Part shown: positions 1,565-46,761 of the stretch, one piece after another
Layout of the letters: each line of letters opens with the position of its first letter
How positions within the stretch are numbered: the stretch's first letter is position 1
Assembly: GCA_030524315.1 (NCBI GenBank)
Contig: JAUNGU010000009.1
Span: forward strand, 1-46,761
Reading direction: 5' to 3'
DNA length: 46,761 bases
DNA from: Peptococcaceae bacterium
GTDB taxonomy: Bacteria > Bacillota > Peptococcia > Peptococcales > Peptococcaceae
Notes under the pieces: model-generated
Told to the model about the DNA's origin: nothing
Databases searched by the model: none
What the model saw: only the letters and a program-made list of their open reading frames with translations
Made by a program: the position numbers and the translations under genes

Positions 1565-3859
1565 ATGTTTGTCATACCATTGTATAATGTACTCATCGTT
1601 CCCCACGTCAACATGTACGTCAAGGTGAGCGAGTTTAAGGAATTTGCCCTCAAGGAACCAGCCCTCTACGAGGATGTGGTGTTGCTCATTGCCAAGGAGC
1701 AGCGGGATCGCCACGCTTATCAGAAGAACGATTTCTACGACATCGGCGTGCGCGGCCAGGTCATTGCCATTTCTGAGGATGGCTTCGTGACGATCCACAG
1801 CGCGAGCCGCGTGCACATTGATGCCGTCCATATCAATACGGATGCAACCATCGATGTGGAGACGACGCCACTGGAAGATATCGCCGACCTCAGCCCCGAG
1901 GAGATGCAGCCCCATCTGGCGGCGATCAAGGAGGCGTTGGCGGATTTTGCCAAGGACTTTGATTGGGGCGCGCGGGTGTTGCCGATGATCGAGGGCTTTC
2001 AGACCATGGAGGATGCGGCGGTGTCCCTTTCGCCATGGCTGACGACGACCAACGAGGATCGCTACGAGGTGCTGACCCACGCCAGCCGTCACGAGCGCAT
2101 GCTGGCACTGGAGCGCATTCTCTACGCCTTTATCGAAATCGCCAAGGCAGGCGCCGAGGCGGCGGAAATGCAGAAAATCGAGTACGAGCAGAACATGAAG
2201 GAGCAGGCGTTGCGCCACCAGATCGAGGTCTTGCAGCGGGAGCTTGACGAGATGCACCCGGAAAATCTCTCGGAGCTCGAGCAATTTGCCACGAAAATCC
2301 AGACCTTGCCCCTCAACGCCCAGGCCAAGGCCGAGGCAGAGAAGGTGTTGCGCCGTCTCAAGCAGGAAAATGGCACCGGCAACGAATACGCCCTGCTCTA
2401 CGATTATATGGAATATCTCCTCTCGATGCCGTGGAAGCGCCAGCGCGCCAAGAAAATCGATGTCGCCTATGCCAAGAAGGTTCTCGACGAGGACCACTAC
2501 GGCCTCAAAAAGGTCAAGACCCGCGTCATCCAGCAGATTGCCGTCATGTCCCTCAAGAAAAAGCAGGCAGGCTCGATTTTGCTCTTTGTGGGCGCGCCGG
2601 GCACCGGCAAGACGTCGGTGGGACAGAGCATTGCCCGCGCCCTCAAGCGCAAATACGTGCGCGTGAGCCTGGGTGGGGTCCGCGATGAGGCGGACATTCG
2701 CGGCCATCGCCGCACCTACATTGGCGCCATGGCCGGGCGCATTGCCGACGGTCTGCACAAGGTCGGCGTCAACAATCCCGTCATGGTCCTCGACGAGGTC
2801 GACAAGCTCTCGGCCAGCTACAACGGCGATCCGGCGAGTGCGCTCCTGGAGGTCCTCGACCCTGAGCAGAACAACACCTTTGTCGATCATTATCTCAACG
2901 TGCCTTTCGACCTCTCGGATGTATTCTTCATTTGCACTGCCAACAGCACTGACACCATCCCGGCGCCGCTCTTGAACCGCATGGAGGTCATCGAATTTTC
3001 CGGCTACACGATGGAGGACAAGCTCGAAATTGCCAAGCGCCACCTGATCAAAAAATCCCTCGATCAGAGCGGCCTCAAGGAAGGGGCGCTGGTGCTCTCG
3101 GATGAAACCCTGCGCACCCTCATCGAGGACTTCACCATGGAGGCGGGCGTTCGCGGCCTGCGCAAGCGCATCGACGCCCTCTGCCGCAGCGCCGCTGTGC
3201 GCGTCGCCACCGGCGAAAAGCCACCGTTTACGATTGTGCCGGAGGATTTGCGCGAGTGGCTCGACATGCAGCCATACCTCCACGAGCACATTCTCTCGGA
3301 GAAGCGCCCGGGCGTCGTCACAGGCCTGGCCTGGACTCAGGCAGGCGGCGACATTCTCTTTATTGAAGCCCTCTTTACCAAGGGCAGCGGCAAGCTCGTC
3401 CTCACCGGCAAGCTCGGCGACGTCATGAAGGAAAGTGCCTACCTGGCGACGAGCCTCGTCAAGGCCCTCTTCCCGGACAAGGCCGCCCTCTTTAAGGAAA
3501 ACGACCTACACATTCACGTCCCTGACGGCGCTGTGCCAAAGGATGGCCCATCGGCGGGCATTACCCTGACCACGGCGATTGCTTCCCTGGTCACCGGCCG
3601 CGCCGTTGCCCCAACCTACGCCATGACCGGCGAGGTCGCCCTGCGTGGCGCCGTCACCGCCATCGGCGGCCTCCAGGAAAAGCTCATGGCGGCTCAACGC
3701 GCTGGTATCACCACCGTCCTCATTCCAAAGGAAAACGAGCGTGATCTCGCCGACATCGACGAAAAAATCACCGCGCCCCTGACCATCATCCCTGTCGAGG
3801 ATGTGCACGAGGTCTTGCGCATCGTCGGCATTTTGGACGCGGCGCAGCCAGCCGAATAA
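1565..3859 (+). CDS. lon: ATP-dependent protease Lon (LonA type)
   Basis: A 764-aa cytoplasmic AAA+ serine protease that degrades misfolded and regulatory proteins. Domain order: N-terminal substrate domain (about 1-200), helical linker with coiled coil (about 200-270), AAA+ module with Walker A GAPGTGKT at 343-350 and Walker B VMVLDEVDK, then a protease domain with catalytic Ser663 (PKDGPSAG) and Lys706 (GLQEK). The 43-residue Ser-Lys spacing matches E. coli Lon. The N-domain is slightly short but the protein is otherwise full length. The ATG at 1565 follows GATGGAGG. It is monocistronic. The CIRCE-like repeat in the leader suggests heat-shock repression by HrcA. Confidence 0.96.
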   Translation: MFVIPLYNVLIVPHVNMYVKVSEFKEFALKEPALYEDVVLLIAKEQRDRHAYQKNDFYDIGVRGQVIAISEDGFVTIHSASRVHIDAVHINTDATIDVETTPLEDIADLSPEEMQPHLAAIKEALADFAKDFDWGARVLPMIEGFQTMEDAAVSLSPWLTTTNEDRYEVLTHASRHERMLALERILYAFIEIAKAGAEAAEMQKIEYEQNMKEQALRHQIEVLQRELDEMHPENLSELEQFATKIQTLPLNAQAKAEAEKVLRRLKQENGTGNEYALLYDYMEYLLSMPWKRQRAKKIDVAYAKKVLDEDHYGLKKVKTRVIQQIAVMSLKKKQAGSILLFVGAPGTGKTSVGQSIARALKRKYVRVSLGGVRDEADIRGHRRTYIGAMAGRIADGLHKVGVNNPVMVLDEVDKLSASYNGDPASALLEVLDPEQNNTFVDHYLNVPFDLSDVFFICTANSTDTIPAPLLNRMEVIEFSGYTMEDKLEIAKRHLIKKSLDQSGLKEGALVLSDETLRTLIEDFTMEAGVRGLRKRIDALCRSAAVRVATGEKPPFTIVPEDLREWLDMQPYLHEHILSEKRPGVVTGLAWTQAGGDILFIEALFTKGSGKLVLTGKLGDVMKESAYLATSLVKALFPDKAALFKENDLHIHVPDGAVPKDGPSAGITLTTAIASLVTGRAVAPTYAMTGEVALRGAVTAIGGLQEKLMAAQRAGITTVLIPKENERDLADIDEKITAPLTIIPVEDVHEVLRIVGILDAAQPAE

Positions 3860-43437: not shown

Positions 43438-46400
43438 ATGACTAGAAAAATCACAGCCATATTTACTGCGCTAGCGATGGTGCTGAGCCTGCTGCCCGCT
43501 GGCGCCCTGCCGAGCTGGGCGGCGGATACAGCGCCGATGACGTATGATATTTCAAAGGGGTCTGTGGGCCTCCCGGATGACTCTGAAAAGGGCGATTGTC
43601 CTGGCCATATCATCACAGGCAGTTCCGACGAGTACGCTATTTTTGTCACGGGTGGTTCCCACAGGATCATCTTGCAAGATGTGCGTATCGATAGGTCAGA
43701 GGGCACTGATGCTGCATGCGCCTTCGATATTTCAGATGGTAAGGTGGATCTCATCCTCAAAGGCGAAAACAGCTTCGTGAGTGGCGAGGAAAGTGCTGGA
43801 ATCCGGGTGCGCCAAGACGATACGCTGAATATATCGGGTGATGGCAGCTTGACAGCGACCGGTTCTAACAGAGGCGGCGCTGGCATTGGCGGTTCATATC
43901 GCGCTGAGTGTGGCAACATCCATATCAGTGGTGGCACCATCACTGCGATAGGACAGGGTGGCGGTGCTGGTATTGGCGGTGGTTGCGGCGATGAATATTA
44001 CAATCAATCAGGCGGCACGATCGAAATCAGTGGTGGCACTGTCATCGCCACGGGCAGCAATGGCAGCGACGACATTGGCAGTGGTGCCTCTAACCAAGGC
44101 GATGCAGGAACCTTTTCGACAGGGGAAAATGGCAACGCCGTGATTTTTGCCGACACTATTGGCGACAAAAGCGCCCAATCCAGCTGGCGCGGCATCTTCT
44201 TTGAGGGCAACACCGGCAAGGTCTATGGCAATCCGACCCTCCAGCAGAATCTGGAAATTCCCGACGGAAAAACCCTGACCGTGCCAGCAGGCACCAGCCT
44301 CACAGTGCCAGCTGGCAAGACCCTCACCATCCCTGAAAACAGCACCCTGACGGTGGATGGCACCTTCGAACTCAAGGGCAAGCTGGATGGTGACGGTCAA
44401 ATTACGCCGAAGCTATCTGCATCCATTACCGATATAAAAGCAGAGGATAAAGACTACGATGGTAAAGAAATCGACGTGACCTACACCTATAACGGCAATG
44501 GCACCGTCGATGAAACATGGTACGCGGATGATAACGGTAGCAGAGGCGATAAGCTCGGCGCTGCCCCAACCGACGCAGGCACCTATTGGCTCGGCCTCTC
44601 TGCTGAAGCTACAGGATTTTATCAAGCAGTGCCAGAACAGACAAAGCAAGTGACCATCACCCCGGCACCGCTTAATGGCAATGTAGAAATAAGTGGTGAG
44701 CCTGCTTTTGGAAAGACACTGACTGCTACATACACTGAGAATGAGCCGGTTACTTTCCAGTGGCAACGCAATGGTCAGGAAATTGCAACCGGTAAAAGCT
44801 ATGAGCTAACTGCTGAAGATGTGAATCAAAAAATCCGCGTTGTTGCCATCCCGGCAAATAACAATTACAGCGGAACGGTTTCGAGCACTGAGCTGACCGT
44901 GAGCAAAGCCCAAGAATCGGTGCCGAACCTATCGATTATCAATGAAACCGAAAGCGTCACCATTCCGGCAGGATATTCCTATAAGCTGGACAATGCCGAG
45001 TGGACACCGTGCACGGAGCAAACGACTGTCACCGTTGCACCGAAGCAAAAGATCAGCATCCGCAAGGATGAAACAGCGACTCACAGTGCCAGTCCGGCGC
45101 TCGAACTGACAGCGCCAGAGCGAGGCAAGACGCCAAATCTTGCGATTGACAACGCCAGCGAAAGCGTCACCATCCCAGCTGGCTATTCCTACAAGCTGGG
45201 AGAGGCTGGTGACTGGACACCGTGCAAAGACGAAACACCTGTCAAGGTTGAACCAAAGCAAAGAATATCCATCCGCAAGGATTTCACAAATGACAACTAT
45301 GCTAGCATTGCCCAGGAACTGACCGCACCAGTACGTCAAGACACGCCAAATCTTGCGATTGACAACACCAGCGAAAGTGTGACGATTCCAGCTGGTCATT
45401 CCTACAAGCTGGGCGAAGCTACAGACTGGACACCGTGTGATAAAGATACGACTGTCACCGTTGCACCAGAGCAAAAGATTAGCATCCGCAAGAATGCAAC
45501 GACAACAGAATACGCCAGCGACCCACAGGCGCTGACGGCGCCAAGTCGCCTTGATGCACCAACCACCGTCGTCGGCAGCATCAATACGCTGAGCGGTCTC
45601 TCCACCGATATGGAATACAGCCGCGATGGTAAGACGTGGACGGCTGTCAAGGGCGCGAGCATGGATCTAACGGCGGGCGACTACTATGTGCGATTCAAAG
45701 CGACGACTGACAACTTCGCCAGCGAGAGCGTCAAGGTGACTGTCAAGCCGTACAGCGGCAAATACAGCTATGAAACATCCGTGACCCAGCCGGAACACGG
45801 CAAGATCTCTGTCGACAAGTATGTGACCGAGGGTGAAACCGTCACCATCACCGTCACACCAGACGATGGCTATGCTGTCGATTCTGTGAGCGTCACTGAT
45901 AAGCGCGGCAAGACCGTCGACGTCACGAAAAACAGCGACGGCACGTACTCCTTCACCATGCCAAAGGGCAACGTGACCATCACCGCGACCTTTGTCGAGA
46001 GCGACGAGCCGGAACCGGAGCCACAGCCGGAACCAAGCGCGCTCCCATTCACCGACGTGAATGCAGACGCGTGGTACATCGACCCTGTGCGCTTTGTCTA
46101 CAGCGAAGGCCTCATGACCGGCACCAGCGCGACGGAATTCTCGCCGAACCTCACGACGACCCGCGGCATGATTGTCGCCATCCTCTACCGCATGGAGGGT
46201 GAGCCGGATCTCAGCGGTGAGAACCTCGGCTACCCATTTGCCGACGTGGATACAAACGCCTACTACGGCGACGCCGTCTACTGGGCGCGACTCAACGGCA
46301 TCGTCTCGGGCTACAGCAGCGACGCCTTCGGCCCAACCGATAGCATCACGCGAGAACAGCTCGCCGCCATCCTCTACAACTACGCTGAATACAAGGGCGT

Positions 46401-46602
46401 CGACACGAGCGCGCGCAATGACCTGTCGAGCTACGATGATAGCGGCAGCATCAGCGGCTGGGCAACTGACGCCATGCAGTGGGCAAACGCAGAGGGCATT
46501 GTGAACGGCATGAGCGCAAGCGAATTGGCACCAAAGGGCAATGCGACAAGAGCGCAGGTAGCTGCCATGCTCGAGCGTTACATCAAGAACGCTCTAACGT
46601 AA
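43438..46602 (+). CDS. Large secreted SLH-domain surface protein
   Basis: A 1054-aa exported protein. Signal peptide about 1-28 (ALPSWAAD cleavage). Residues about 35-260 form a parallel-beta-like region with GGAGIGG repeats, similar to carbohydrate-binding beta-helix domains. Then comes a stretch of short TLTVPAG repeats, an Ig/MBG-like part (about 325-490), three tandem repeats of about 70 aa (496-707), an InlB-type repeat (about 780-855), a Pro-Glu linker and three SLH repeats (about 868-1054). It should bind the secondary cell-wall polymer and may bind glycans. Codons are less GC-rich in the repeats. The ATG 43438 has only a weak GAGAGGAT site. The gene end lies in a tandem repeat. Confidence 0.9.
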   Translation: MTRKITAIFTALAMVLSLLPAGALPSWAADTAPMTYDISKGSVGLPDDSEKGDCPGHIITGSSDEYAIFVTGGSHRIILQDVRIDRSEGTDAACAFDISDGKVDLILKGENSFVSGEESAGIRVRQDDTLNISGDGSLTATGSNRGGAGIGGSYRAECGNIHISGGTITAIGQGGGAGIGGGCGDEYYNQSGGTIEISGGTVIATGSNGSDDIGSGASNQGDAGTFSTGENGNAVIFADTIGDKSAQSSWRGIFFEGNTGKVYGNPTLQQNLEIPDGKTLTVPAGTSLTVPAGKTLTIPENSTLTVDGTFELKGKLDGDGQITPKLSASITDIKAEDKDYDGKEIDVTYTYNGNGTVDETWYADDNGSRGDKLGAAPTDAGTYWLGLSAEATGFYQAVPEQTKQVTITPAPLNGNVEISGEPAFGKTLTATYTENEPVTFQWQRNGQEIATGKSYELTAEDVNQKIRVVAIPANNNYSGTVSSTELTVSKAQESVPNLSIINETESVTIPAGYSYKLDNAEWTPCTEQTTVTVAPKQKISIRKDETATHSASPALELTAPERGKTPNLAIDNASESVTIPAGYSYKLGEAGDWTPCKDETPVKVEPKQRISIRKDFTNDNYASIAQELTAPVRQDTPNLAIDNTSESVTIPAGHSYKLGEATDWTPCDKDTTVTVAPEQKISIRKNATTTEYASDPQALTAPSRLDAPTTVVGSINTLSGLSTDMEYSRDGKTWTAVKGASMDLTAGDYYVRFKATTDNFASESVKVTVKPYSGKYSYETSVTQPEHGKISVDKYVTEGETVTITVTPDDGYAVDSVSVTDKRGKTVDVTKNSDGTYSFTMPKGNVTITATFVESDEPEPEPQPEPSALPFTDVNADAWYIDPVRFVYSEGLMTGTSATEFSPNLTTTRGMIVAILYRMEGEPDLSGENLGYPFADVDTNAYYGDAVYWARLNGIVSGYSSDAFGPTDSITREQLAAILYNYAEYKGVDTSARNDLSSYDDSGSISGWATDAMQWANAEGIVNGMSASELAPKGNATRAQVAAMLERYIKNALT
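44923..45558 (+). repeat. Three tandem 210-213-bp repeats within the SLH protein gene
   Basis: Units start at 44923, 45133 and 45346, each encoding PNLxI, then SVTIPAG, YKL, DWTPC (EWTPC in unit 1), an acidic or polar turn, KISIRK and ending near LTAP. Units 2 and 3 are closest. Each unit has a single Cys in WTPC. Confidence 0.9.
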
Positions 46603-46711
46603 CATAATGAGTGGCGACGCGAAGCTAGTCCTTTAGGGCCACGACGCGTAGCGAAGCGGAGCTAGTCCCGTAGGGATGTTGCAACGATATGTTGAGAACA
46701 TCCTAGCGTAA
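46567..46711 (+). repeat. Duplicated SLH C-terminal tail (109-bp period)
   Basis: The last codons of the SLH gene (MLERYIKNALT, stop; ATG at 46567) recur as MLQRYVENILA, stop, at 46676-46711, exactly 109 bp later. The second copy has no gene body in front of it. Confidence 0.8.
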
Positions 46712-46761
46712 CATGATGGGGCGCGCGACGCGTAGTGAAACGGAGCTAGTCCCGTAGGGGC
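46616..46761 (+). repeat. Direct repeats downstream of the SLH gene
   Basis: A roughly 33-bp unit starting GACGCGTAG and ending AGTCCCGTAGGG occurs at 46643-46675 and again at 46727-46759. A shorter, diverged form (GACGCGAAG then CTAGTCCTTTAGGG) lies at 46616-46638. The array continues to the window edge. Confidence 0.85.
46676..46711 (+). pseudogene. Orphan C-terminal fragment of an SLH gene
   Basis: Twelve codons (MLQRYVENILA plus TAA) match the terminal residues of SLH domains, including those of the gene directly upstream, but nothing else of the domain is present. It is a remnant left by recombination or deletion within the repeats. Confidence 0.6.

Follow-up and report, generated by a model that had tools for sequence, protein, structure and literature searches.

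The contig analysed here ends in an array of SLH gene tails and short repeat units that is probably the footprint of a small 3' cassette spread by gene conversion among the SLH paralogues of the genome. Such a cassette would consist of an alternative set of the last 11 codons followed by TAA, the leader CATGATGAGTGG and one or more copies of a 24- or 34-nt repeat, and would have been placed ahead of the original final 12 to 18 or so codons in several paralogous SLH genes. The window, meaning the whole stretch of 46,761 nt that was analysed, is one entire contig (C81 of G000) of a metagenome-assembled genome (MAG) of 2.14 Mb, which is 87% complete and represents the sole species of its genus in the comparison set. 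In the product of the contig's last gene, Pfam recognises beta-helix repeats (Beta_helix_3), Flg_new_2 and, at the C-terminus, three SLH domains (1.6e-29). Upstream of the SLH domains this gene also holds 213-bp direct repeats at 44949–45500 (2.6 copies, 74% match), and at 1565–3859 the window encodes a second Lon protease that is 46% identical to the other Lon of this genome and 56% identical to a copy in the relative G008.

As the original prediction held, the end of the SLH gene recurs 109 nt downstream (Table 1). The second tail is indeed an orphan, though it was not copied from tail 1: the two belong to different classes and are alike in only 23 of 36 nt, which marks tail 2 as a displaced tail of another class and rules out a recent copy or simple tandem duplication of tail 1 as its source. 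The repeat unit, expected to be about 33 bp long, measures 24 nt once and 34 nt twice, and its 17-nt core GAGCTAGTCCCGTAGGG is present in three copies where chance would give 0.06, all of them in the array and none elsewhere in the window. The array also runs off the window as foreseen, being cut by the contig end, and the final 55 nt of the window are the initial 55 nt of contig C108. Since the overlap between C53 and C121 has equal length, this contact looks like a join in the assembly graph. The array probably continues on C108, which after the overlap holds the third tail, a terminator and then unrelated genes. A single ORF on C108 (L006, 726–2231) joins an EamA transporter and a NUDIX domain. 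Read across the join, the whole array would run SLH - tail - unit - unit - tail - unit - tail - terminator. The middle tail, which closely resembles tail 1 of the SLH gene on contig C23, is itself of the cassette type, so that two cassettes appear to be stacked before an original tail that now lies on C108.

Table 1. Features at the 3' end of the window
Feature	Position	Strand	Basis or remark
SLH protein gene, 1054 aa	43438..46602	+	ORF listing; last gene of the contig
Tail 1, cassette-type: final 11 codons and stop, MLERYIKNALT-stop	46567..46602	+	30/36 nt alike to tail 1 of C65 and C28, same class
Leader CATAATGAGTGG, from stop codon to first repeat unit	46603..46614	+	Counterpart in C65, C23 and C28 is CATGATGAGTGG
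Repeat unit 1, CGACGCGAAGCTAGTCCTTTAGGG, 24 nt	46615..46638	+	Same 24 nt in C65 and, as a tandem repeat, in genome G434
Repeat unit 2, long form, 34 nt	46642..46675	+	Repeat search of the window
Tail 2, orphan, MLQRYVENILA-stop	46676..46711	+	32/36 nt alike to C23 tail 1
Repeat unit 3, long form, 34 nt	46726..46759	+	Repeat search of the window
55-nt contig-end overlap with C108	46707..46761	+	Beyond it, a third tail (LQRYIENVIAYAKL-stop), then a terminator

Genome-wide, 89 SLH domains are found in about 27 genes, several of which tell the same story (genes are referred to by their contigs). Copies of the repeat lie on C81, C108, C23 and C65, with a truncated one on C28, and every one of them stands directly behind an SLH stop codon, against a background of about 27 SLH genes among perhaps 2000 in the genome (gene number assumed). 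A genome search allowing three mismatches added one site only (C27), which is at chance level, the reversed pattern used as control giving six matches. At least four SLH paralogues (the window gene, C65, C23 and C28) end in tail 1, TAA, CATGATGAGTGG and the repeat, directly before an orphan tail. Three sister genes of the cassette carriers, C1, C14 and C19, which are 80–88% identical to them, end in MLQRYITNVI(S/N/G)-stop followed at once by a terminator and have no cassette. In C28, C65 and C23 this MLQRYITNVI-type tail is present solely as the orphan behind the repeat, and the tails in use at the cassette loci (LERYVKNVLA-stop, LQRYVENILA-stop) are of another class; the orphans of C28 and C65 match the tails of C1 and C14 in 33–34 of 36 nt and their own tail 1 in 21–22 of 36 nt. 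Since tail 1 and tail 2 differ in class, each array closes with the displaced original end, and tail 1 with its stop codon and the repeat is the newcomer. The stop codon of the orphan tail has been lost in C65 and C108, as expected of an unselected remnant that decays. Searching the genome for the repeat thus brought up further SLH genes with the same 3' unit (C65, C23 and, truncated, C28, in addition to C108), and the simple local duplication that would have undone the original prediction does not account for a cassette standing behind three further SLH genes and on C108. All units are oriented one way relative to the SLH gene. The junction between repeat and orphan falls at the ATG in C23 and at unit 2 of the window, 15 nt upstream of it in C108 and apparently a few nucleotides upstream in C28 and C65; because these junctions differ between loci, several junction-forming events are needed, beyond one insertion that was then copied.

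The evidence for exchange comes from seven close SLH genes that are about 80–88% identical across 620 nt. The gene-body tree places C65 beside C1 (support 0.999), while C28 falls with C19 and C14. No difference separates C65 from C28, however, in the final 49 nt, the stop codon and the start of the spacer, where an exact tract of 68 nt runs, so the cassette moved between paralogues. Within those 49 nt the two genes have 26 consecutive polymorphic sites in common (p < 5e-5, 20000 site permutations), and C81 and C23 have 20 such shared sites at 112–57 nt before the end (p 0.00015, or 0.003 corrected for 21 pairs); both tracts hold after the 21-pair correction, and the identity-tract test overall gave a global p of 0/2000, within a set of seven genes that offers few independent events. 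The spacer of C28 is itself a mosaic with a C65-like start, a 43-nt middle identical to C23 and a C65-like end. Both marks of gene conversion are thus present, namely tracts longer than chance and a phylogeny of the 3' segment that conflicts with that of the gene body. This bears out the original reading of the array as a recombination scar, in so far as paralogues have traded 3' ends; of the further proposal that SLH genes are swapped or deleted through shared 3' repeats, the swapping of 3' ends stands, whereas there is no sign of it for whole genes. Loci of a second SLH subfamily (C82, C53, C121; L061 1011–1300, L063, L064) lack the repeat but are identical to one another over tracts of 203 and 185 nt, a sign of recent gene conversion, and therefore SLH exchange does not depend on the repeat. 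Gene conversion among surface-protein paralogues is a general bacterial phenomenon, and the case described here resembles it in its mosaic tracts and in a 3' segment that departs from the gene-body tree, but differs in that the converted segment bears a foreign short repeat and strands the recipient's original tail downstream.

The mechanism we propose would begin with the arrival of an outside repeat downstream of the stop codon in a single SLH gene. As tails 1 and 2 flank the repeat and both supply homology to SLH tails, gene conversion could then copy tail 1 together with the repeat into sister genes, each event stranding the recipient's own tail downstream, where decay would follow, and repeated or unequal exchange between tails would yield the tail-unit-tail-unit-tail array of the window. 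Joining assisted by microhomology at the variable junctions is a guess on our part. The homology on the downstream side is 36 nt, which is short for homologous recombination and counts against the conversion model, as does the need for several junction-forming events. The protein keeps a C-terminus of normal length in which the last 11 residues alone differ, and the downstream tails are probably untranslated 3'-UTR ahead of the terminator. Read-through past tail 1 was rejected, as the frame meets a TAG within the spacer, and so was re-initiation at the orphan ATG, where an AGGG abuts the ATG without the spacing of a ribosome-binding site. The scar itself probably does little.

The repeat has a distribution of its own. 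It was found in none of 12 other genomes of the family and in none of all 20 other genomes of the order examined, and in a sample of the phylum it occurs in 5 of 398 genomes, that is the source genome and four of a single other family of Bacillota (f35), in which 18 of 61 genomes carry it. There it is a dispersed and sometimes tandem 24-nt repeat, with perfect tandem arrays in G434 (L146 180–300, L147 150–249, L148 140–211); in L147 and L148 the arrays overlap with sequence that Rfam assigns to group II intron D1-D4 (RF02001), and such an intron is a possible vehicle of its spread. An Anaerovibrio MAG has 50 copies, intergenic and nested in other palindromic repeats, and some of the 50 have long flanks in common with f35 copies. 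Furthermore, plasmid3 of the cyanobacterium Chondrocystis sp. NIES-4102 (AP018284.1; L151 1501–1526) has an intergenic 26-nt exact match to window positions 46614–46639 and two further copies of the core, and a second plasmid has a partial match. No SLH tail accompanies the repeat outside the source genome. From these matches the repeat is widespread and probably horizontally moved, and since another family of Bacillota has it as a common intergenic repeat and the order's other examined genomes lack it, it would have entered from outside the lineage. Searches for a viral or phage origin gave no match. Contamination by a Selenomonas-type genome was rejected on the GC content of 56.7–57.2% on all five contigs, against 40–50% at repeat-rich loci; the window's Lon is nearest to that of the own-family genome G008 (56%) as well, although as a second paralogue it is a weak marker.

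Some integrative elements target tRNA genes or the 3' ends of genes, leaving a replacement 3' end upstream and the displaced original 3' end downstream. The arrangement described here is alike, so that repeat and tail 1 might together be a mini mobile element targeted to SLH 3' ends and carrying a replacement tail, with the orphan as its far attachment site. In several genes the cassettes do sit at nearly one position, the ATG codon of MLQRY; the ORF is restored by the replacement tail, with the displaced tail at the far end, and in other genomes the repeat is clearly dispersed by itself. We nevertheless consider targeted insertion unlikely, as the inserts are only about 80–110 nt long, hold no gene beyond the SLH tail and have no terminal inverted repeats, as the repeat occurs elsewhere without the SLH tail and as the junctions vary by up to 15 nt. 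Moreover, no integrase, transposase or recombinase was found among 20 proteins scanned at the loci, and the array contains no inverted-repeat pair, so that both the terminal inverted repeats and the target-site duplication of a MITE are missing at these variable junctions. A related and likewise doubtful idea is that the repeat, which is common to different Bacillota classes and a cyanobacterial plasmid, is, once coupled to an SLH tail, a self-spreading 3' cassette: a homing unit by virtue of its two flanking tails, copied into SLH paralogues by host recombination with no protein of its own. The orphans could also be remnants of deleted neighbours, a tandem SLH pair with the repeat between them having lost all but the last 36–54 nt of the second gene. 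Tandem SLH genes are known in this genome, several of them within 20 kb on C79, and terminators follow the orphan tails; still, such deletions are an improbable source, since the nearly constant remnant length at all loci is unexpected from independent deletions and since C1, C14 and C19 are single genes that end in the orphan-type tail. On C79 (about 20.8–38.1 kb; L068–L071), four SLH genes lie in some 17 kb and have exact tracts of up to 69 nt in common.

The occurrence of the repeat exclusively behind SLH stops could also reflect selection for a regulatory 3'-UTR structure that serves as mRNA stabiliser, terminator or attenuator. This is very improbable: units and spacer fold no better than shuffles (z -0.75 and -0.30), the repeat contains no terminator while ordinary ones come after the orphan tails, and three close paralogues lack it. 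An Rfam search of the window gave no match. DNA and RNA folds of the unit gave no REP-type hairpin better than shuffles, and a reading as two GNA-loop mini-hairpins was rejected as well, since the inner variants GC-GAA-GC, GT-GAA-AC, AC-GAA-GT and AT-GAA-AT look compensatory, yet the folding energies do not surpass those of shuffles, and the downstream stem is paired in 19 of 30 distinct types (permutation p 0.73). Least probable of all is a phase-variable site at which a site-specific recombinase reshuffles SLH genes through the repeats, as in shufflons or Campylobacter fetus sap, for although paralogous surface-protein genes have the repeats in common and the 55-nt overlap points to a probable branch of the assembly graph within the array, the units have one orientation instead of forming inverted sites, no recombinase gene lies among the scanned neighbours, the last 11 residues alone differ, and the other SLH subfamily has its long tracts without the repeat.

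Among known short repeats, the RU-1 and RU-2 elements of Enterobacteria are small, mobile and MITE-like (103–168 bp) and themselves encode a new C-terminus at gene 3' ends (PMC2759123). The SLH cassette is likewise a short dispersed repeat at a gene 3' end that alters the C-terminus, except that its new C-terminus is an SLH tail, with the repeat placed after the stop codon. REP elements of the GTAG/CGTC type are also short, dispersed, intergenic and often tandem or clustered (PMC3733652); the repeat described here differs from them in having no supported hairpin or palindrome and no transposase found nearby. Among the 20 proteins scanned at the loci there was no RAYT, the tyrosine transposase associated with REP elements.

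Taken together, the repeat, whose exact sequence had no occurrence in the literature searched, is an unexplained short and probably mobile sequence with 24–26 nt of identity between bacterial phyla. Within this genome the repeat, probably foreign, serves as a tracer for which SLH genes have exchanged, and the arrays are a clear natural archive of the exchange of 3' ends between SLH paralogues, in which the newcomer and the displaced tail are both still legible.
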